Assembly (NCBI GenBank): GCA_007571365.1
Contig: RKRN01000055.1
Coordinates: 1-64,000 of the forward strand
Direction of reading: 5' to 3'
DNA: 64,000 nucleotides
Source of the DNA: Candidatus Latescibacterota bacterium
Lineage (GTDB): Bacteria > Latescibacterota > UBA2968 > UBA8231
Positions 1 to 11,524 of this stretch are shown here, in pieces. Every line of letters starts with the position of its first letter. Position 1 is the stretch's first letter. The position numbers were made by a program, and so were the translations under genes. The notes under the pieces were generated by a model. That model was not told where the DNA came from, ran no database searches, and was given only the letters and a program-made list of their open reading frames with translations.

Positions 1-1440
1 CACCGGAAAAACTGGGGAGCGGCGGGCGGGCTGGCCTTGGGGATCGCCGCGCTGCTGCTGCCCGCCCTCCTGGGGTCGGCTTGGACGCCAAAATTTGCCG
101 AGCTTGGGCTGGCCGAGGGCTTCGGCCGGCTCTATGCCCTCTGGCAAGGGATTGAGTTCCTGCCGGACCGCGACCCCTACTATGCGCGTCAGCATTCCAG
201 TCTGCTTGCGGCGTTATTGTGGAAAGCCGGGCTGGCCTTTCCCTTCGGCCTAGTGGCCCCGCTGGCCTTGGTGGGCATCCTCTCGCGCCTCCGCGTCGAG
301 CGCCAGCCGGTCGAGACCGCGCTGCTCCTGTTCGTCGGATGTTTCGCGGTGCAGGCCCTGCTCTTCTCGCCGGCCGACTCGACCGCACGGGCCCCGGCTG
401 TACCGGCGTTGCTGATCTTTGCGGCCAGCGGCGTGGCGGCTATGGGTGCCCGGCCGCCGCGGTCGGCACTGGCTGTCGGTGCGGCCGGCCTGCTCCTAGC
501 CATCGGCCTCAACGCCGGCGATGTAGGCGCGGCCGGCCGCGCCCGCCAGCACTATTGGCTCGGCTATGGCTTTGAGCAACTCGGCCTGCGCGCCAATGCG
601 ATTCGGGAGTACGAACAGGCCCTGGCGCTAGACGCCGGCCGCCTAGCGACCTACTACGCGCTGGGCGAGCACTACCTAGCCCAAAGCGACAATATCCGCG
701 CCGGTGGCCTCTACGAGCGCCTGCTCCAGCGCTGGCCCGATCAGCACCGGGCACGCCGGGCGCTCGGGGAGGTGTACCTAGCCTCTGGACGGGCCGCGGA
801 AGCAGCGAAGTTGTACCAGGGCCTAATGGACGCGGAGGCCGCCGCGGAGGCCGAGTTGCTACCCATGCTGGGCGAGGCCCTGGTCCGCAGCGGCGATATG
901 GAAGGAGGCATCAGAGCCTACCGCGAGGCCCTGGAGGCGCTGCCGAGCAACGGCGCGGTACGCGGCAAGTTGGCCTTGTTGTACTCGGCCACAGGCCAGC
1001 TCGCCGAGGCGGTGGACGCCTACCGCATCCTGTTCGAGGAGGGCCAAGTGGCCGAATTCGGGCCCCCGCTGGCCGAGGTGCTAATCCGCAGTCGGCGCGC
1101 CGAAGAGGCGGCGGCCGTGCTCGAGCGGGTCCTGCAGGCTGCGCCCGAATCGACTGCGGCTCTGGCACTGCGGGGCAAGCAACTGTTTGAGCAGGGCCGC
1201 TACCGCGCCGCCGCTGTCCACTTCGAGCGGTTGCGCCGGCTTTGGCCGCAGGACTACCGCGTCTATTTCTTTTTAGCCCAGCTCTATGAGCAGCTCGGCG
1301 CAGAGACCAAGGCGGACGACGCCCACGCGCTCTACATCCGCTACCGGCGGCACAAAGAGCGCGAGGAAATACAGGAGCAGATGCAGCGCGTGGGAGAAAC
1401 GATGGCGGAGCAGCTAAAATCCCAACTGGAGCAAAGATAG
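1..1440 (+). CDS. Membrane/TPR protein (C-terminal part of a GT39/ArnT-like + TPR protein), truncated at window left edge
   Basis: Frame is open from base 1 (HRKNWGAAGGLALGIAALL...), so the TTG at 37 is probably not the true start. Hydrophobic N-part then several TPR-like repeats. Similar to 12775..14688 (YYARQHSSLLAALLWKAGLAFPFGLVAPLAL vs YYARHQSSLLQALLWIRGLAFPFGLVGPLAL). Confidence 0.8.
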   Translation, partial: HRKNWGAAGGLALGIAALLLPALLGSAWTPKFAELGLAEGFGRLYALWQGIEFLPDRDPYYARQHSSLLAALLWKAGLAFPFGLVAPLALVGILSRLRVERQPVETALLLFVGCFAVQALLFSPADSTARAPAVPALLIFAASGVAAMGARPPRSALAVGAAGLLLAIGLNAGDVGAAGRARQHYWLGYGFEQLGLRANAIREYEQALALDAGRLATYYALGEHYLAQSDNIRAGGLYERLLQRWPDQHRARRALGEVYLASGRAAEAAKLYQGLMDAEAAAEAELLPMLGEALVRSGDMEGGIRAYREALEALPSNGAVRGKLALLYSATGQLAEAVDAYRILFEEGQVAEFGPPLAEVLIRSRRAEEAAAVLERVLQAAPESTAALALRGKQLFEQGRYRAAAVHFERLRRLWPQDYRVYFFLAQLYEQLGAETKADDAHALYIRYRRHKEREEIQEQMQRVGETMAEQLKSQLEQR

Positions 1441-3482
1441 TGCGGAGACCGGGGCTGATGCTGCTGGCACTCGCCTGCGGGCTTTCCACCGCTGCAGCCG
1501 AAGAGGTGCGGTTCGGCCAAGGAGGCAACATCACTTGGCAAGGAGAGGTCTCCGGGTTGTCGGGCGTCTCCACCATCCAGCCCGAATTCCGCCCCGCCCT
1601 CAACCCGAACACCACCGCCATCGGCGTCGCCCCGGACGACCGGATCGAACTGGCGGAGCCCGACTACCCCCAAGCCATGCTGCCCATCCGGTTAGACGAG
1701 GGCGAGAACCTGTCTGCGAGTCTGGTCGCCGAAGGCGGCAGCATTGTCTCCGAAACGGCCGTGGAGATCAACAGAGACGAGCTGGCGGCGATTTTGCAGG
1801 GGCTTCTTTCTCCCGAACCGACGGGCGCGGCTTTCGAGCGCAAAGGCACCAATATCCTCGGCACCCTGCTGACCGTGGACCTCGGAGCCACCGTCGGCGT
1901 CAACCGCATCCGCTTCTTTCCGCGCAACACCTTCCTCCCCGCCCCGACCACGCCGTTCCAGAACGACTTTCTGCGGAGCTTTGAACTGCGAATCCACGAC
2001 GGTTTGCACCTGAACGAAGCCGGGCTGCCGGCCTTGGGGACTTGGGAGTCCTTCCTGACCGTTCACGACAGCAACGATCCGGTGATGGTCGTCGAAATCA
2101 ATCCGCCCCGCTATCTGCGCTTTGTCCGCCTGCGCGCTGCGTCGTCCATACCCTTTGAGATCGAGAAGCTACAGATTTTCGGCGAGGGCTTTTTCCCGAC
2201 CGCCCAGTATCTCTCGCCCATCGTCGATCTGGGCACCCCCAGCAACTGGGGACAAATTCGCTGGACGAGCAACGTGCTGGGAGAGGAGGCCCTCACCGAT
2301 CTCATCGTCCGCACCCGCACCGGCAGCGACGCCACGCCCTTCGTCTACAACCGCACCGAGGTGGGCAACCCCAACGCCGAGGATATACCCTTCTCCATCG
2401 ACAACCCGAGCGAACCTCTTTCCCGGGCGGAGTTTTTCAACCTGCCCGTCGAGGGGACCGCCGCTGATTCTTGGCAGCGCGGGTCTATAAGAGACGACTT
2501 AGACAACTGGAGTCCGTGGTCGCCGCCTTACTCGGCGGCCGCCGGCTCCCGCAACACCTCGCCGGCACCCCGGACCTACTTCCAGTTCCGGGTCGACTTT
2601 CTGAGCCGAGAGCTGCATTCGAGCCAAGTCCTCAACAGTCTAGCCTTTGAGTTCACTAGGCCGGCTCTGGCCGATGCCCTCATAGCCGAGGTCTTTCCGC
2701 GCACTGTGGAGGCCGCTCAGGCCACTGCCTTCGTGTATGCGGTGCGGGCCGAAATGGAACGCAGCGAGCTTCAGGGCTTTAACGGTTTTGAACTATTCAC
2801 GCAGGGACGGGTCGCACAGATCGCACGACTGGAGATCGTGGCCGCCGACGGCCAGAGCCTCTTAGATCACACCTTTGAGACGCCGGATCGCGTAGCGGAC
2901 GAGGGCGCCGCCGCCATCACTTCCATCACCGACGAGGGCTTCGCCGTCCGCTTCCCCCGCATCGATGCGGATGGCACCATACTCAAGATCCACTTCGTCA
3001 ACCGCGTTCTTGCCTACAGCAGTGATTTCGGCGGTCGGGCCTTGGTACATGAAACCGAAGCCTTTCAATGGGTGCAAGCCGGCAATGCAACGGCGCTGGA
3101 TGCAAACGATGCCCACTTCGATTCGGGCATCACCGTCTTGAGTCCGGCCGTGACCCGCACCGGACTGATCGGCAACTTCGCCCTCGACACCCCGGTCTTC
3201 ACGCCCAACGGCGATGGCGCACACGACAGCCTGCGGCTGCGTTTTGAGGTGCTCGCGGTCGTGGGCGAGGCCGATATAAGGGGGACTCTGTTCGATATTA
3301 GCGGCCGGCCGCGGGCGACGCTCTTCGAGCACCGGGGCGGCAACGGCACCTACGCCGAACATTGGCACGGCCGCAACGACCAAGGCCAACTGCTGCCGCC
3401 CGGGATCTATCTCGTGCGACTGGAGGTGGGCGGCGACGCCCGCTCCACCGCAGCTATCCGCTCGGTGGGGATTGCGTATTAA
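1440..3482 (+). CDS. Exported protein with F5/8 type C-like (discoidin) region and C-terminal FlgD-like Ig domain
   Basis: GTG start overlaps preceding TAG stop; signal peptide MRRPGLMLLALACGLSTAAA; C-terminus TPVFTPNGDGAHDSLRLRF...GIYLVRLEV...VGIAY. Confidence 0.85.
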   Translation: MRRPGLMLLALACGLSTAAAEEVRFGQGGNITWQGEVSGLSGVSTIQPEFRPALNPNTTAIGVAPDDRIELAEPDYPQAMLPIRLDEGENLSASLVAEGGSIVSETAVEINRDELAAILQGLLSPEPTGAAFERKGTNILGTLLTVDLGATVGVNRIRFFPRNTFLPAPTTPFQNDFLRSFELRIHDGLHLNEAGLPALGTWESFLTVHDSNDPVMVVEINPPRYLRFVRLRAASSIPFEIEKLQIFGEGFFPTAQYLSPIVDLGTPSNWGQIRWTSNVLGEEALTDLIVRTRTGSDATPFVYNRTEVGNPNAEDIPFSIDNPSEPLSRAEFFNLPVEGTAADSWQRGSIRDDLDNWSPWSPPYSAAAGSRNTSPAPRTYFQFRVDFLSRELHSSQVLNSLAFEFTRPALADALIAEVFPRTVEAAQATAFVYAVRAEMERSELQGFNGFELFTQGRVAQIARLEIVAADGQSLLDHTFETPDRVADEGAAAITSITDEGFAVRFPRIDADGTILKIHFVNRVLAYSSDFGGRALVHETEAFQWVQAGNATALDANDAHFDSGITVLSPAVTRTGLIGNFALDTPVFTPNGDGAHDSLRLRFEVLAVVGEADIRGTLFDISGRPRATLFEHRGGNGTYAEHWHGRNDQGQLLPPGIYLVRLEVGGDARSTAAIRSVGIAY

Positions 3483-6234
3483 CAGGCGTTTTATGGGGCG
3501 TTTTACGCAGAAAAGAGGCCGCGGCATAAGGTCACTGGCGATACCGCGACTCGCTTGTATCTTGCTCGCGGCCGGTTCCGGCCTCGGTCTCGAGCCGGCC
3601 GATGGTCAGATCGACTACGGCGGTCGCCTCGGCCAAGTGCAGGCCGGCCAGCGGAGCTTTGTACCCCATGGGCCCACAACTCTGATGGAGGCCGTCGATC
3701 CGGCCGTGCGCAAATGGTACGTGCCACAGGAGTTGTACTCGCAGTCCAAGTTCTGGCAGTGGGAGACCACCAACTACGCCCGCGAGCTGTACCAAGGCTA
3801 TGTCAACAACACCCTCGAAGGCGACTTCTTCTACGATCTCTACGGCAATCTGCTCACGCGGGGCTGGCTGCTGTACAACACCAACCAGACCAACCCGGTG
3901 GAACGCGGACACGTCGTGTTTGAATCCCGCAACCTGAACGACTGGTTCTCCAACATCGCCATCGCATCCGAGGAGAAGGGTCAGTATCGCTACGCCCTGA
4001 CCGTCGGCCGCGATCTGCGCACGACGCTGACTCCGATGGTCTTTTCAAAACCGCGGTTCAACGGGGTGCAGCTCGATTTGGCTACCGACAAGTACGAGGG
4101 GACGATACTCTATTCACAGGGCGGCATCGGTGGCCAAGCGGACGTGCGACCCCGCACCGACGTCACCACGATCATGGGGGGCCGCTTTGCGACTCAGGTG
4201 GGCGATTTCGTGGAAGTGGGGATTCACATGGCCAACGCCCATCAGTCCAACAGCCTGAACGACCAGCTAATGGACAACCTGCTCTCCGGCTCGCTACCGG
4301 AATCCAAAAACGAGCTGGTTTCCACCATCGAGATCGTCCTGCGCGACGACTCGCCCGCGGACCTGACGAGCGGAGCGTCGTACTTTCCAGCCGGCTCCGA
4401 CATCATCATCACCTATCTCGACGGCACCAAGGATGTCGGCAAGGACATTCGCTTCGCGCCCGTCGTGCAGGGAGGAATTCCCGGGCCGGGTTTCCTCACC
4501 GCCACCGGCAACGACGAGATCCGCCTGACATACGATTTCACCGACCCCTCGTTCGTCGCCCGGGCCCGGGCGGACCGCAGCGAAATCGCCAAGGTCGAAT
4601 TCCGCCTGACTCTGGCCAACGACTACCAGATATGGATGACCTCAGACCGACAGACCAGCCGCAGCGGCGAGCCTGTGCTGCTGATCGTGGAGCGGGCGAG
4701 CGGCCATGTCAGGGACGGCTCCAATCTAGGCGTCGTGCAGTTCGACTACGGTCTGCCCACCGCCACGCACCTGATCGGCAGCAGCCTGAAGGTGAATGAC
4801 GTGTGGGGCTTTGACTTCTACGGCGAATACGACCTAGGGTGGAGCTACCGCAAATACCCCAATCCGCTGGCCGAAAGCCACGAGGTCTCGTCCGGCGTCC
4901 GCGGCCAGCGCGCCCGGCCGGCCTATATGTTGAATCTGAGCAAGCAGGCCCATCCGTTCTTCTTTTTTGGCGAGGCCTACAGCATCGATCCCCTGTACAA
5001 TACCCAGACCTTCGTCGTAGATGCTGACGGCACCATGTTCTACGATGAGGACCGATTGAAGCTAGAGTTGGTCGACGACAACGACGATCAGGACCGCCTC
5101 CCCGACCTATTCCGCCTCGACACCGTAGCCCAAGGCACGGCCGATCCCTTTGCCGCAGAACTGGGTGCTGTCGACTTCCGCGTTTTTCCCGGCTGGGATC
5201 GCAACAACGATTTTATCCCCGACTACAACCAAAACGACAATCGGGCCCAGCCCAATACCATCCCCGACTACGAGGAGCCGTTTCTGCGGTTCGGCACCGA
5301 CCGCCCCGAATTCCTGCTCGGAGTCGACATGAACCACAACTTTTGGGTCGATCGCTTTGAAAACGACGAAGAGCCGGACTACCCCTACCCCCGAGATCGC
5401 CGGGGCTTCAACCTGTTCGGCGGGGTCCATTTGACCGCGGATCTGGAGGTCAAACTCGGCGCACTCCGCGAGGAATCGATTGCCTCCCAACAGCGCAATC
5501 ATAGTAACTACGCGGTGCTGGAATGCGATCGGACCTCGCCGCGTTGGGGGCGGTTGCGCCTCTTGCAAATGTTGGAGTTGGTCCACGACGATATCGCCGA
5601 CCCGCTGCTGCAATGGGCCCCCAACAATTCCCTCGCCGGCGGACGGGTCGTGCGCTTAGCCGATCCGCTGCTGGCCCGAGATGCCTCGATCAACCGTTCC
5701 TTCGTCGGCCACCACTGGCAGAAGGGGCCTTGGTTCGTGCAGAGCAAGTTGAGTTATCTCCGCTTTGACCAGCGGCTGGACGAGTCGGAAAGGCTGCGCC
5801 AGGGCCTCGACGAGTCCGACTTCTTCTTCGGCCTCGTCAACAAGGCCTCCTACCGCTATCATTGGGGGCCCTTGCAACTGGTGCCGCAGTGGAAAAGCGA
5901 ATACATCGACCAGAGTCGCAATCTGTTCAGCGACGAGGAACGCACCACGTTGACCGAGGTGCTTTCCGGCTTGGTGGTCGTGCCGCTGCTGTACGCTACC
6001 ACTTTGCAGGGCGGGGTCGAATACCTCCTTTCTTGGGACTTAGAAGGTCGGACCGCCGATTTCACCACCGCGTCCTACGGCTTGCAGTTTACTAGCACCT
6101 CGGCCTATCAGGGCTATGAGGTGTGGCTCGTCACGAGGTTTGTGGCGGAGCGCACCGACCCGCACGGGGCGGATGCCTTCACGAGGGTGCAATCGTTTAT
6201 CAGCGTATACGCTGGACTGGAAAGGTCGCCATGA
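3472..6234 (+). CDS. Large exported, putative outer-membrane protein with Asp-rich (Ca-binding-like) repeats
   Basis: 920-aa ORF overlapping the upstream gene; alternative ATG start at 3493. Hydrophobic signal segment LACILLAAGSGLGL; D/N-rich segments (DDNDDQDRLPDLFRLD, WDRNNDFIPDYNQNDNRAQPNTIPDYEE, GVDMNHNFWVDRFENDEEPDYPYPRD); aromatic-rich C-terminal half suggests beta-barrel (inference). Confidence 0.75.
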   Translation: MRINRRFMGRFTQKRGRGIRSLAIPRLACILLAAGSGLGLEPADGQIDYGGRLGQVQAGQRSFVPHGPTTLMEAVDPAVRKWYVPQELYSQSKFWQWETTNYARELYQGYVNNTLEGDFFYDLYGNLLTRGWLLYNTNQTNPVERGHVVFESRNLNDWFSNIAIASEEKGQYRYALTVGRDLRTTLTPMVFSKPRFNGVQLDLATDKYEGTILYSQGGIGGQADVRPRTDVTTIMGGRFATQVGDFVEVGIHMANAHQSNSLNDQLMDNLLSGSLPESKNELVSTIEIVLRDDSPADLTSGASYFPAGSDIIITYLDGTKDVGKDIRFAPVVQGGIPGPGFLTATGNDEIRLTYDFTDPSFVARARADRSEIAKVEFRLTLANDYQIWMTSDRQTSRSGEPVLLIVERASGHVRDGSNLGVVQFDYGLPTATHLIGSSLKVNDVWGFDFYGEYDLGWSYRKYPNPLAESHEVSSGVRGQRARPAYMLNLSKQAHPFFFFGEAYSIDPLYNTQTFVVDADGTMFYDEDRLKLELVDDNDDQDRLPDLFRLDTVAQGTADPFAAELGAVDFRVFPGWDRNNDFIPDYNQNDNRAQPNTIPDYEEPFLRFGTDRPEFLLGVDMNHNFWVDRFENDEEPDYPYPRDRRGFNLFGGVHLTADLEVKLGALREESIASQQRNHSNYAVLECDRTSPRWGRLRLLQMLELVHDDIADPLLQWAPNNSLAGGRVVRLADPLLARDASINRSFVGHHWQKGPWFVQSKLSYLRFDQRLDESERLRQGLDESDFFFGLVNKASYRYHWGPLQLVPQWKSEYIDQSRNLFSDEERTTLTEVLSGLVVVPLLYATTLQGGVEYLLSWDLEGRTADFTTASYGLQFTSTSAYQGYEVWLVTRFVAERTDPHGADAFTRVQSFISVYAGLERSP

Positions 6235-9200
6235 TTCGACGAGCTCAAGCCCTGTGCGGCATTCTCTTGCTGAGCGGCGGCAACCCGCTATGGGCGCAGA
6301 AGGGCTACGACCTGCGCAACGATCAGATCGTCGTCGACCAAGCGCGACACTGGGAGCGGTGGACGATGCCCGCCCACCTCGTCCGCGTCGCGGCGGATGG
6401 CGCGGTGCGGGCGCGGAACTTTCGCACGGTCTATGAGCTGCTGTCCGACCAATCCTTTGGCCGGCCGGTGACCCTCACCCGCTCTGCGCCGCGCATAGCC
6501 AACATGGACAGCACCCTCAGGCTGGACTTCCAAGGCAATTCAGTCGCGGACCTGAGCGGCAATCTCATCTACGACTACCTAGTCCGACCCGGCGCGAGCC
6601 GCGCCGGGTCCAATCCCCACCTCATGCAGCACATCGCCGACGGAGACCCGGACACCTTCTGGGAACCCAATCTCGACGACTCACCCGAAGACTGGTGGGT
6701 CGAAGTGGATTTGGGCCGGCCGGTGCCCTTAGAGCGAGTTCGGCTGTCCTTCGTCGCCGAGGCCCTGGGGGATCCCTTCTACCGGTTCATCCTCCTCCTC
6801 GGGCCGACCCAAGGCAACTACGCGGATGAGACGCCCGGCAACCTGGAGACCTTCATTCCCTTTGAAGGCGTGAACGCGGAGCAACGCACCTTTGTCTTCG
6901 ACGCCGAGCGGGTCAGCGCCGACCTGCCGGCAGACGACCGGGTTGCCCAGACCAGACGCCTGCCCGTCACGGACAGCAACAAGCACTCCAGTGCTTACTA
7001 CGGCGTGGCCGAACCGAGCCCAGAGTGGAACGGCAAGTTGGTCGAAATCATCCGCATCGTGGTCACCGACACCCGCGGGGGCCGCGCCGAGCCAATCAGC
7101 GAGGAGCAATGGCAGGCCCGGCCCGCGGAGGAACGCGGTGCCATCGTGTACTTCCTGAAAGACGGGGACTTTGAGGAGCCAGTGGATGAGGACACCTATT
7201 TCGCCCTGCCCGCAGACCGGCAGGGGCGGCGGGTCCACTATCGCCGCGAGTTGCCGCGCTTGGCCGAGGTAGAGGCCTGGGGTCGGGGAGACGAGATCGG
7301 TATTGAGATACTATCCGGCGGCGGCACGGTGGAGCAGACTTCGACCGGCGGTGCTCCGGCTGCCATGTTCGATGGGAGTTATGGCAGCGCCAATCAGCTC
7401 AGTACCTACCTCATCTCCGCTCCGGGGCAGAACACGCTGACTGTCGATATGGGCGGCACCGTTTGGTTGCAAGAGATTCGGACCATCAGCCAGAATCCGC
7501 CGCGGGGCTACGTCTTGCGCGGCTCGAACGGCACTAGGGACGCGCAGGGGAACCTCCAGTGGGAGCAACTCTCGGCGGTCGAGCGCGAGACCAACGTCGA
7601 CAACGGCTATTTTCGCCTCGTTGCCGATGTGCTAGCACCAGCCCGCCGCGTCCGCTTTCTCGATATGATCGCCTTTGCTCTGCAAGAGGACAGCACCGAA
7701 CTGACCAGCCGCGTCTGGCCGCGGATTCGGCTGATGTGGCTCTTCTCCGAGGGGCCCCCCGCCGAAGTGGTATTGGAATCGGACCTGATCGAACTGCCCG
7801 GCGTGGTCGCCCTCGGCGCCGTTCGCTGGGCGGCCACAGCACCCCCCGGCTCTGAGGTGCAGATTCGCACCCGCACCGGCGACCAGCTAGTGGAGCGCAT
7901 CCGCTACTTCGACAAGACCGGCAACGAAAAGACCAAGTCCCAGCACAGAAGGCTGTCCTTTACCCAGAAAGGCCCTATCGACACGTCGAACGTGGCCGGG
8001 CCGGGCTGGAGCACTTGGAGCAGGAAGTACGAGCGTTCCGGCGATCCGGCCACCTCGCCAGGGCTGCGCCGTTTCCTGAAAATCCAAGTGCGCCTCGTCA
8101 ATCACGACCGCCAAGCGGTGCCGGGCATTGAGCAGATCAGCGTCGATCTGCGGACGCCCGTGGCCCAGCGCCTGGGGGCCGAGGTCTGGCCCGAGCGGGT
8201 GCCGGCCGGTCGGCTCGATACCTTTGAGGTCTTCGTGCAGCCCAGTTTCCTCGAGCAACCCGCCAGTAGCCACAGCCCGGGTTTCGACGAGGTCCTCGTC
8301 AGGGCCGATCCGCCGATCGAGCTCCGCGTGATAGACCTAGCGGTCGGCACCGAGCCCGAACTGTCTGGGAGCGAGCCTGCACAGCTTTTCGAGCGGCCCT
8401 ACCCCGGAGGAATCGAGGCTGCCGATGGCCAAGTCCTGCAGGTACTCAGCGAGGGAGATTCGCTCTGGTTGCGCCTGCCCGCACCGATGCAGAGCGTCCC
8501 CGCGGGGTTGCTCCCGCGCCTCTACTACCGCCAGCTCGACCCCGGCGACGAAGTGCCCACCGGCCTAGACGGCCGGCTGCTAACCACAAACAGCCACAAC
8601 CGATTGCCCGAAAACGAGCGGGGTGCCATTCGCCACTTCCGCCGAGTTGGAGCCGAGCTGGAGGAAGTAGCTAGCAACGCCTACCAGAGCTTATCCGAGG
8701 AGGAGAAGGGCCCGGTGCGCTACTTCCGAGTCGTGACCAGCTTGGGGGAACAGACGGTGTTCACCGCGCTCGGGGATTCCCTAAGCGATAGCCAGTACGC
8801 TCAATTGAGCACCCACGAACGCGGCCGGGTAGTCGGCCTTGGACGGCTGTTGCGCCTGCGCTTCTCGGCGGCCGTGTACCTGCCGAGCACCCAGTTGGAG
8901 GTGGCCGTGCGCCACAGCAGTCTGGCGGTGCTCTGGCAGGGCGCCGCGGACCAAGATGTCACCACCCTGCGCCCGGCAAGCGCCTTGGCCATCCAAGCCG
9001 GGGAAACAGGCGACGTCGTCGCCAATCTCTCCATCACCCCCAACCCCTTTACGCCCAACGGCGACGGCGTCAACGACGAAGCCCAGATCCGTTTTGCCCT
9101 GTTCGCCGTCGCGGTCTCTCGTTCGGTGGCGGTGCGGATTTACTCCCTAGGCGGCGATCTCGTCCGCCGCCTAGATCGCCAGTTGGTAGGCGGTCCACAG

Positions 9201-9335
9201 GTTGTCGCTTGGAACGGCCGCGACGATCGCGGGGGCTTGGTGGCCCCCGGCCTCTACCTCTGCCAAGTCGGCGCGGCAGCGGATGCCAAAGCCGGAAGGC
9301 GCAAACGTGATCGCGTGATCGCCGTAGCGTATTGA
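6231..9335 (+). CDS. Large exported protein: discoidin-like region, internal ERG-type repeats, C-terminal FlgD-like Ig domain
   Basis: ATG at 6231 overlaps the TGA of the upstream gene (ATGA); the ORF track extends to 6123 but MIRRAQALCGILLLSGGNPLWAQ is a better start (signal peptide). C-terminus ITPNPFTPNGDGVNDEAQIRF...GLYLCQVG...VIAVAY. Confidence 0.85.
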   Translation: MIRRAQALCGILLLSGGNPLWAQKGYDLRNDQIVVDQARHWERWTMPAHLVRVAADGAVRARNFRTVYELLSDQSFGRPVTLTRSAPRIANMDSTLRLDFQGNSVADLSGNLIYDYLVRPGASRAGSNPHLMQHIADGDPDTFWEPNLDDSPEDWWVEVDLGRPVPLERVRLSFVAEALGDPFYRFILLLGPTQGNYADETPGNLETFIPFEGVNAEQRTFVFDAERVSADLPADDRVAQTRRLPVTDSNKHSSAYYGVAEPSPEWNGKLVEIIRIVVTDTRGGRAEPISEEQWQARPAEERGAIVYFLKDGDFEEPVDEDTYFALPADRQGRRVHYRRELPRLAEVEAWGRGDEIGIEILSGGGTVEQTSTGGAPAAMFDGSYGSANQLSTYLISAPGQNTLTVDMGGTVWLQEIRTISQNPPRGYVLRGSNGTRDAQGNLQWEQLSAVERETNVDNGYFRLVADVLAPARRVRFLDMIAFALQEDSTELTSRVWPRIRLMWLFSEGPPAEVVLESDLIELPGVVALGAVRWAATAPPGSEVQIRTRTGDQLVERIRYFDKTGNEKTKSQHRRLSFTQKGPIDTSNVAGPGWSTWSRKYERSGDPATSPGLRRFLKIQVRLVNHDRQAVPGIEQISVDLRTPVAQRLGAEVWPERVPAGRLDTFEVFVQPSFLEQPASSHSPGFDEVLVRADPPIELRVIDLAVGTEPELSGSEPAQLFERPYPGGIEAADGQVLQVLSEGDSLWLRLPAPMQSVPAGLLPRLYYRQLDPGDEVPTGLDGRLLTTNSHNRLPENERGAIRHFRRVGAELEEVASNAYQSLSEEEKGPVRYFRVVTSLGEQTVFTALGDSLSDSQYAQLSTHERGRVVGLGRLLRLRFSAAVYLPSTQLEVAVRHSSLAVLWQGAADQDVTTLRPASALAIQAGETGDVVANLSITPNPFTPNGDGVNDEAQIRFALFAVAVSRSVAVRIYSLGGDLVRRLDRQLVGGPQVVAWNGRDDRGGLVAPGLYLCQVGAAADAKAGRRKRDRVIAVAY

Positions 9336-11524
9336 GGGATCAGGTGAAGACTATGCGCGCCCGCGACGGATTCGCGACCGGGGCCCTATTGCTGGCTCTG
9401 GCCAGCACCCTGTGTGCTCGGGCCGAATTTCATCTGGGCTCGGGCCCGAACTCTTGGGAACGCTTTGTCGTCCCCGACGCTGGAGAGGCGGCGGGAATCT
9501 ATGTGGTCGTGGACGCGGCCGGCAACGTGCTCCAGGAGTATCCGGTCCGCTCTGTCGAGGAGGTGGGCGGCGGGACCTTTTTGGCCGAGTACAACTATCG
9601 CGGTCCCGACCTGCCCGCCCTAGAAGCCGGTGCGCTCCAAGCAATCCGAGTTGACCCGCTGGTGAATTTGTCGCGCGACAGCCTCCTGTTCGCCCGCGGC
9701 GGTAGCATTTTTCACGGCCACAACACCAACGCACACCCCACCGAAGATCTGCTGCGGCTCATCGATGGAAATCCCACCACCACCCGCCTGATACTGATCG
9801 CCCAGAATCCGCTAGCGGCTGTGCCCTTGATCCGCGGCGGCGTATTCTGGGGGGCTCATGCCTCGGCCGTCATCGTCAACCTCGGAGCGGAAATGCCTAT
9901 CAACCGCGTCCGGGTCTATCCGCGGCTGGGTCGCCTAGACGACGCTGCCGCTATTGCTGCGCTGGAGGCTCCAACGCCCGATCCAGCGCTGTTTGGGGAG
10001 ACCAGCTTTGCCGACAATTATCTCGAGTGGTACGAGATCGCAGTGACCGATAATGCCGCGCCCATCAAGGAGCGCCCCGGCGGCGGCGGCAGCGACCGGC
10101 CCGGGCAGGGGCAGTTCAAGCGTTTTTCCGAAACGACTGGTTACGTCGACTCGTCGGCCACGGACCCCAACTTCAAAGCCCTGATCCAGACCCGGGAGAA
10201 TCTGGACCCAGTGATCGATTTTCGCTTTCCCGTCCGCCACGAGCGGTTCGTTTCAGTGCGGCCCTACATTCCCGAGCGGACTTGGGAGATGGCCGAAATC
10301 GAGATCTACGGCGAGGGTCATGTGCGCCGCTCTGTCTATCGCTCGCAGATACTGGATTTTGGCCAACCCATGGCTTGGAGCAAGATACGTTGGACCGGCG
10401 ATCGCCCCCTCGGCACCCAGATAAAGGTGCGTACTCGCACCGGGAATACCCCGCAGCCAGACCTATTCCTGCGGCGCACGTTGAGCGGAAAGTTCCAGCC
10501 GATCGACTTGGTCGCGTACCAGCAGAACCTCACGTCGGACGAAGTCAAACGCACTACAGACCTAGACAACTGGAGCTTCTGGTCTGCCACCTACGATTTC
10601 GCCGCTGGCGAACGCGTCGCCGGCTCACCGGCTGCTGCTTGGACGGACGGGACCCCGTTGCTCTCGCCCGGGCCGAGCCGGTACCTTCAGTTTGAGATCG
10701 TCCTGCTGGCGACCCGTGCTCGGACGCCGCGCCTAGACGAGTTGTCCCTGCTGTTTTCCGAGACCCTCGCGGCCGCGGAACTCATCGGCGAAATCTGGCC
10801 CATCGCGGTGGACAGTTTCGAGCCTCAGCTCTTTACCTATGTGGTTAAGCCCATCCTCCGCGAAGGCAATCGCGGCTTCGACCGCCTAGAGATATTCACC
10901 GGCGGACCGGCCGCCGGGGTCCGCTCGGTGCGCGTGGGCGGGGAAGGAGTCATGGAGCGGTTTCCGCCCGAAATCCAGCCGGATCGCATCGTCGTCTCCT
11001 TTGACCGGCTGGTGGATCCCCAGCAGGACAGCGAAAAGCGCATCGAAGTGGAATTCAAGGCCCGCGTATTGCGCTTCGGCAGCGAATTTAGCGGTTGGGT
11101 TTACGACAGCCGGGAGCCGGAGCTGAAGCAAAACATCACCCCCGGAAACGCCACGATCCGTTTCGTCGGGGACGGCCTTTCCGTGCGTACGCCCACTGGG
11201 GGCGACCTCGTGCAACGGCTCGAGCTCCGCCCGGAAGTTTTCACGCCCAACGGCGACGGGGTCAACGACGCGGTCTTCATCTCCTTTGACCTGCGCGATC
11301 TGACCGCGGTGCGCCCGGTTGAGGTGCAGATATGGACGCTGGACGGGCACCCGGTGCGGCAGTTGCGGCCGGCCGCAACTGCCAGCGGCAACTTCACCCA
11401 CCGCTGGAACGGCCGCGATGATGCGGGTCGCTTGGCACGGCCCGGAGTCTATTTAGTGCAGGTCGAGTTGGACAGCGATGATGGACGAAAAGCAGCCATC
11501 GGGATTCTCTCTCTCGCCTATTGA
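9332..11524 (+). CDS. Exported protein with discoidin-like region and C-terminal FlgD-like Ig domain
   Basis: TTG 9332 overlaps the upstream stop; ATG at 9353 is an alternative. Signal peptide GALLLALASTLCARA; PEVFTPNGDGVNDAVFISFDL...GVYLVQVEL...GILSLAY. Paralogous in layout to 1440..3482. Confidence 0.85.
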   Translation: MRDQVKTMRARDGFATGALLLALASTLCARAEFHLGSGPNSWERFVVPDAGEAAGIYVVVDAAGNVLQEYPVRSVEEVGGGTFLAEYNYRGPDLPALEAGALQAIRVDPLVNLSRDSLLFARGGSIFHGHNTNAHPTEDLLRLIDGNPTTTRLILIAQNPLAAVPLIRGGVFWGAHASAVIVNLGAEMPINRVRVYPRLGRLDDAAAIAALEAPTPDPALFGETSFADNYLEWYEIAVTDNAAPIKERPGGGGSDRPGQGQFKRFSETTGYVDSSATDPNFKALIQTRENLDPVIDFRFPVRHERFVSVRPYIPERTWEMAEIEIYGEGHVRRSVYRSQILDFGQPMAWSKIRWTGDRPLGTQIKVRTRTGNTPQPDLFLRRTLSGKFQPIDLVAYQQNLTSDEVKRTTDLDNWSFWSATYDFAAGERVAGSPAAAWTDGTPLLSPGPSRYLQFEIVLLATRARTPRLDELSLLFSETLAAAELIGEIWPIAVDSFEPQLFTYVVKPILREGNRGFDRLEIFTGGPAAGVRSVRVGGEGVMERFPPEIQPDRIVVSFDRLVDPQQDSEKRIEVEFKARVLRFGSEFSGWVYDSREPELKQNITPGNATIRFVGDGLSVRTPTGGDLVQRLELRPEVFTPNGDGVNDAVFISFDLRDLTAVRPVEVQIWTLDGHPVRQLRPAATASGNFTHRWNGRDDAGRLARPGVYLVQVELDSDDGRKAAIGILSLAY

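Follow-up and report, generated by a model that had tools for sequence, protein, structure and literature searches.

The Asp-box is a short, stable motif that is found in different folds, repeated in beta-domain proteins and described as a 'micro-scaffold'; it forms a beta-hairpin with the consensus S-X-D-X-G-X-T-W and is phylogenetically ubiquitous (PMC2716378). Rickettsia palindromic elements are DNA elements of ~150 bp that enter unrelated genes (PMC10969869). A repeated unit in the Latescibacterota protein P0001 resembles the Asp-box in being a short repeated motif of beta-domain proteins, and the Rickettsia elements in being an in-frame insert of tens of residues into existing proteins. 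It differs from the Asp-box in its greater length, its helix, its consensus and its occurrence as tandem pairs or triples, and in having been found in one protein family only. The Asp-box consensus is present in none of the six P0001 copies, and in place of a beta-hairpin each copy is modelled with a short helix between strands. Unlike the Rickettsia elements, the unit has no palindrome and no recent DNA identity, and it occupies fixed sites of one family. No copy in an unrelated gene was found, all 92 unit-bearing ORFs being P0001 homologs and all 30 ORFs checked from a broader profile search carrying the family core. As the unit departs from both systems in these defining features, we consider the likeness to be one of behaviour only.

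P0001 (6231..9335, forward strand, 1034 aa) is encoded by the third of four tightly overlapping genes that form an operon at 1440-11524 of the window, the whole 64,000-nucleotide stretch of DNA analysed. The operon encodes a 680 aa discoidin/FlgD protein, a 920 aa outer-membrane barrel-like protein for which a Pfam match was absent, P0001, and a 730 aa discoidin/FlgD protein, and gene order is identical at the closest ortholog locus, L021. A preliminary description of this DNA had read P0001 as a 1070-aa frame. The GTG at 6123 that opens this frame lies inside the upstream gene; the ATG at 6231, with a signal peptide and a 4-base overlap with that gene, fits better and is the likelier start.

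The protein comprises a signal peptide, two discoidin domains, Ig-like domains and a CHU_C/FlgD-like C-terminal domain. One domain scores above the Pfam gathering cut-off for PF00754 (F5/8 type C; 30.7 bits vs 28.2), and the P0001 model resembles the tandem C-domain proteins FV, FVIII and NRP2 (Foldseek against the PDB; Factor Va/VIII, E 5e-6 to 1e-5; NRP2, 4e-5), so that Pfam score and fold both place P0001 among discoidin proteins. The model also matches multi-Ig proteins of the PDB. FlgD_ig and CHU_C, the latter a C-terminal domain of type IX secretion, are weak C-terminal Pfam matches, CHU_C scoring 21.2 bits in P0001, under the cut-off of 27, and 37.7 in the paralog L006, over it. P0001 differs from PF00754 discoidin domains in that a two-unit insert splits the C-terminal strands of the second domain (discoidin-2); discoidin-1 is likewise split by another insert in one subgroup of P0001 relatives. 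The same genome encodes a SprA homolog (SprA_N, PF14349; G000:C77:37060-38520, E 1.1e-24), which suggests that the P0001 family may be exported by a type IX system. The literature searched held no paper pairing Latescibacterota with discoidin or with type IX secretion, and a paper on sponge Latescibacterota mentions neither.

Unit copies in P0001 and their predicted structure

The preliminary description had listed five imperfect copies of a peptide repeat, and these peptides are present letter for letter at 7098-7166, 7185-7253, 8592-8651, 8673-8738 and 8784-8849. The corresponding units, all on the forward strand, are 27-31 residues long, with the consensus [YF]-x(n)-G-x-E-[VI]-[ST]-x(3)-[YW]-x(2)-L-P-x(3)-[RK]-G. 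Two are inserted in discoidin-2, in the loop that precedes its last strand: B1 (PISEEQWQARPAEERGAIVYFLKDGDFEE, 7092..7178, E 1.7e-10) and B2 (PVDEDTYFALPADRQGRRVHYRRE, 7179..7250, E 2.8e-9). Three form site D: D1 (LLTTNSHNRLPENERGAIRHFRRVGAELEE, 8577..8666, E 4.4e-10), D2 (EVASNAYQSLSEEEKGPVRYFRVVTSLGEQ, 8664..8753, E 2.6e-11) and D3 (LSDSQYAQLSTHERGRVVGLGRL, 8781..8849, E 1.9e-5), the last being the most divergent D copy. These E values come from a whole-genome search with a profile of 33 rows, the five P0001 copies among them. A sixth, diverged copy overlooked in the preliminary description is recognised by its sequence as unit C (RYFDKTGNEKTKSQHRRLSFTQKGPID, 7902..7982, forward strand, residues 558-584), a single copy before a GWSTWS motif, which scores E 2.0e-8 with a permuted-unit profile of 28 rows, one of which is unit C itself.

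The five copies are real and not a product of chance. The two repeat regions align to each other with a Smith-Waterman score of 55, compared to a maximum of 47 in 2000 shuffles, and the scores of most copy pairs, c1-c2 (49) and c3-c4 (52) among them, were equalled in none of 1000 shuffles; for the weakest pairs, c2-c4 and c2-c5, p = 0.03-0.05 by shuffling. Iterating a profile that started with the five copies led to convergence, and the copies score between 1e-5 and 1e-9 with it. Self-BLASTP of P0001 returned the full-length match alone, with no off-diagonal match, and a profile is thus needed to detect the repeat.

AlphaFold2 modelled mature P0001 (31-sequence alignment) with a pLDDT of 86 and a pTM of 0.72, and in this model every unit has a helix of 5-6 residues that leads into a strand of 8-10 residues. 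Modelled alone, the site-D segment (127 residues, 32 sequences) reached a pLDDT of 89 and a pTM of 0.75, with a strand after each of its three helices (31-35, 60-64 and 98-102). Structure prediction thus bears out a helix-strand unit for every copy, and the units are predicted to be stable without their host domain. Each unit would run from a strand through a Gly turn and a short strand to the 5-6-residue helix (xxxYxxLP), then xxxRG and a long strand. With the site-D segment as query, Foldseek gave no match in either structure collection (PDB: best E 2.0, probability <= 0.07; BFVD: best E 0.86), and the unit is accordingly predicted to have a fold not seen in solved structures.

No unit match above cut-off was found in Pfam, NCBIfam or PHROGs, and none in PDB sequences (best E 0.34), in line with the preliminary description, in which no named family was recognised. 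Muc_B2 matched weakly (2 of 32 members, best E 0.0018), P0001 scoring 16.9 bits against a cut-off of 23.5. Judged on its sequence, the unit is a hitherto unnamed, conserved structural module. A phage origin was considered and rejected: tblastn against 50,697 phage records found nothing, and neither PHROGs nor BFVD folds gave a match.

Filled and empty insertion sites

Unit positions are fixed in 86 homologs, at about residue 148 (site A), 288/317 (B), 568 (C) and 783/812/850 (D). Site A is empty in P0001 itself (6669..6689, forward strand), where it corresponds to the FWEP...WWVEVDL loop of discoidin-1; one paralog clade has a tandem pair of units at this position. A further site, E, is also empty in P0001 (approximately 8250..8282, forward strand, before GFDEVLV), and is filled in two further families within the phylum, f8 and f9, which have a tandem pair before GF[DN]xxL. 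Elsewhere it is empty, relatives thus including both E-empty and E-filled proteins.

The preliminary description had proposed that the repeat is inserted, which is borne out by paralogs of ~770-870 aa in the same genome in which sites A, B and D are empty and the flanking strands are joined directly. At site B, for example, the paralog L167 reads IQYIRIGADEQSKDA-LAEVEVSAVGDN (first strand taken from the same alignment row), compared to IETIRIVITDTRGGRAEQ-(units)-PRLAEVEAWGWGDN for the filled site (alignment and consensus). Since homologs with an empty loop exist, the tandem sets of two or three units at A, B, D and E are each a genuine in-frame insertion. Two units may form an out-and-back excursion that keeps the loop ends in place and leaves the host fold undisturbed, and this would account for the arrangement of the inserts in pairs or triples.

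Site C is occupied differently. Nearly all members, short ones included, carry a lone unit just before the W-S-x-W-S motif. Profiles of site C align in register with those of sites B and D (hhalign scores 21 and 29), above the maxima of 14 and 16 obtained by column shuffling (none of 300 shuffles reached the real score), the C-B match being weak at an hhalign probability of 50%. Across the phylum, the B/D-type unit was found in 28 of 64 genomes and the site-C profile in 35 of 64, including families f8 and f9; this wider range comes from a longer profile that includes the conserved flanks, and a module-only profile without flanks detected site C in two of the more distant genomes (~1e-11). Because it is near-universal, wider-ranging and homologous to B and D, site C is likely the ancestral copy and the source of the others. 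The direction from C to B, D, A and E is drawn from this distribution, 27 residues being too few to resolve a rooted tree of units.

We consider it probable that the unit is an undescribed module, ancestral at site C, that was pasted as tandem sets into loops, was inherited vertically and enlarges the protein surface. The family ancestor would have carried one copy, beside the WSxWS motif of an Ig-like domain. Tandem pairs and triples would later have been pasted in frame into loops of neighbouring beta-sandwiches, namely discoidin-2 (B), an Ig-like domain (D), discoidin-1 (A) and, in another branch, site E, with vertical inheritance and retention by selection after each insertion.

History of the insertions

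The history was read from a FastTree tree without an outgroup, computed for 147 proteins over the core that they share. Site B marks one clade of 88 tips (support 0.97), with site D nested inside it, and site A is limited to 8 tips (support 1.0). Filled and empty states change 3 times for B and 4 times for D, whereas shuffling the labels gave no fewer than 39 and 40 changes; some of the B/D exceptions are fragments. Site A requires 4 changes, no better than shuffled labels, because just 5 tips were scored as carrying A. The three remaining members of the A clade were scored as empty because of a detection limit; the pair is present in their sequences. Sites A, B and D thus appear to have each been gained about once, with vertical descent thereafter.

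Units could instead be ancestral to the domains, the short paralogs having lost them. The conservation of B units across 88 proteins fits such a history, and at the DNA level loss is as easy as gain. However, Fitch reconstruction assigns the root state 'absent' to A, B and D (on the FastTree topology without outgroup), A and E are each filled in a small group only, and units match those of other sites beyond chance, which requires duplication regardless. To our knowledge, ordinary discoidin domains carry no such insert, which also counts against loss. We therefore regard ancestral presence as unlikely.

The preliminary description had further proposed that the repeat is mobile. A still-active peptide-coding element, entering genes in frame as the Rickettsia elements do, would account for clean in-frame inserts at several sites that are empty in homologs. 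Against this, the insertion sites are common to nearly all homologs, the tree gives about one gain per site, and the DNA identity between copies within one gene is at most 0.70, with a mean of about 0.45. No palindromes were found in module DNA (fold z-scores -1.5 to +1.7) and no terminal repeats at module ends, and no carrier outside the one protein family was met among the ORFs checked. An active element is thus very improbable, and of the proposed 'short mobile peptide-repeat module' the repeat and its insertion stand, current mobility being unsupported in view of the fixed sites, the single gains and the low identity. 'Mobile' appears to hold for the distant past only, the unit being, as far as its sequences tell, an old and fixed feature.

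Units that share a site in different proteins are more alike than those of different sites. In a comparison of P0001 with its closest ortholog, dN/dS is 0.21 for the modules and 0.30 for the rest of the protein, with dS near saturation, and the Gly of B1 and of B2 are among 29 columns invariant in 31 homologs. From the tree, the low DNA identity, the lack of DNA signatures and dN/dS, we conclude that the spread was ancient and that the copies have been kept.

Possible functions and occurrence of the family

Site A (the loop from W to the W-x-x-x-D-L strand) and site B (the loop before the last strand) lie at what we take to be the ligand-binding end of the discoidin fold, opposite the termini. 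For this reason we favour a role of the arms as extended loops on a binding surface, where they may enlarge and diversify the surface with which an exported discoidin protein binds glycans or partner proteins. A strong rival, which differs in function and not in history, is that the arms brace neighbouring domains or dock P0001 to its operon partners, the candidates being the 920-aa barrel-like protein and the two smaller discoidin/FlgD proteins. Units also lie between domains (site D) and not just inside them, the operon neighbours overlap, likewise at the closest ortholog locus, and the site-specific consensus sequences suggest fixed contacts per site. We regard bracing or docking as a serious possibility, short of probable.

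Protein evolution is believed to use short peptides as building blocks, and cases in which a donor can be compared with empty and filled targets are uncommon. If the history of copying from site C is correct, protein growth by sub-domain peptide copying can be traced here, with the ancestral copy surviving alongside empty and filled sites, often within a single genome. That the unit is a new small fold and a plug-in loop extender, with tandem pairs pasted into at least four beta-sandwich loops and kept there, seems to us about evenly balanced.

The source genome (5.47 Mb, 344 contigs) contains 179 matches to P0001, which therefore belongs to a giant paralogous family; for a single surface-protein family, this number is unusually large for a genome of this size. 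At E <= 0.01 the unit profile matches 50 times in this genome, and with the five-copy profile the unit was found in each of the 20 paralog loci retrieved from it. The unit was present in 25 of 25 searched genomes of the bacterial family and in some others of the phylum. The family thus offers dozens of paralogs per genome that differ in the number of filled sites, and names a very large group of Latescibacterota surface proteins whose repeat is not annotated in the public libraries searched.

Named relatives bearing the family are Latescibacterota MAGs, many from sponges; several had been given other titles by their submitters, such as Gemmatimonadetes. Family members were also seen on contigs titled Gemmatimonadaceae, Gemmatimonas phototrophica, Bryobacterales and Chloroflexi (L021, L083, L096 and L098), which are likely mislabelled or contaminated MAGs. 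The L021 ortholog seemed 1.4 kb longer than P0001 because its match ran on into the next paralog; the two proteins have the same units. At site D of this ortholog (L021:6706-7086), a stretch of 14 residues, ELPEEERGPVRYFR, is identical in D1 and D2, which are closer to each other than in P0001, possibly reflecting local homogenisation.
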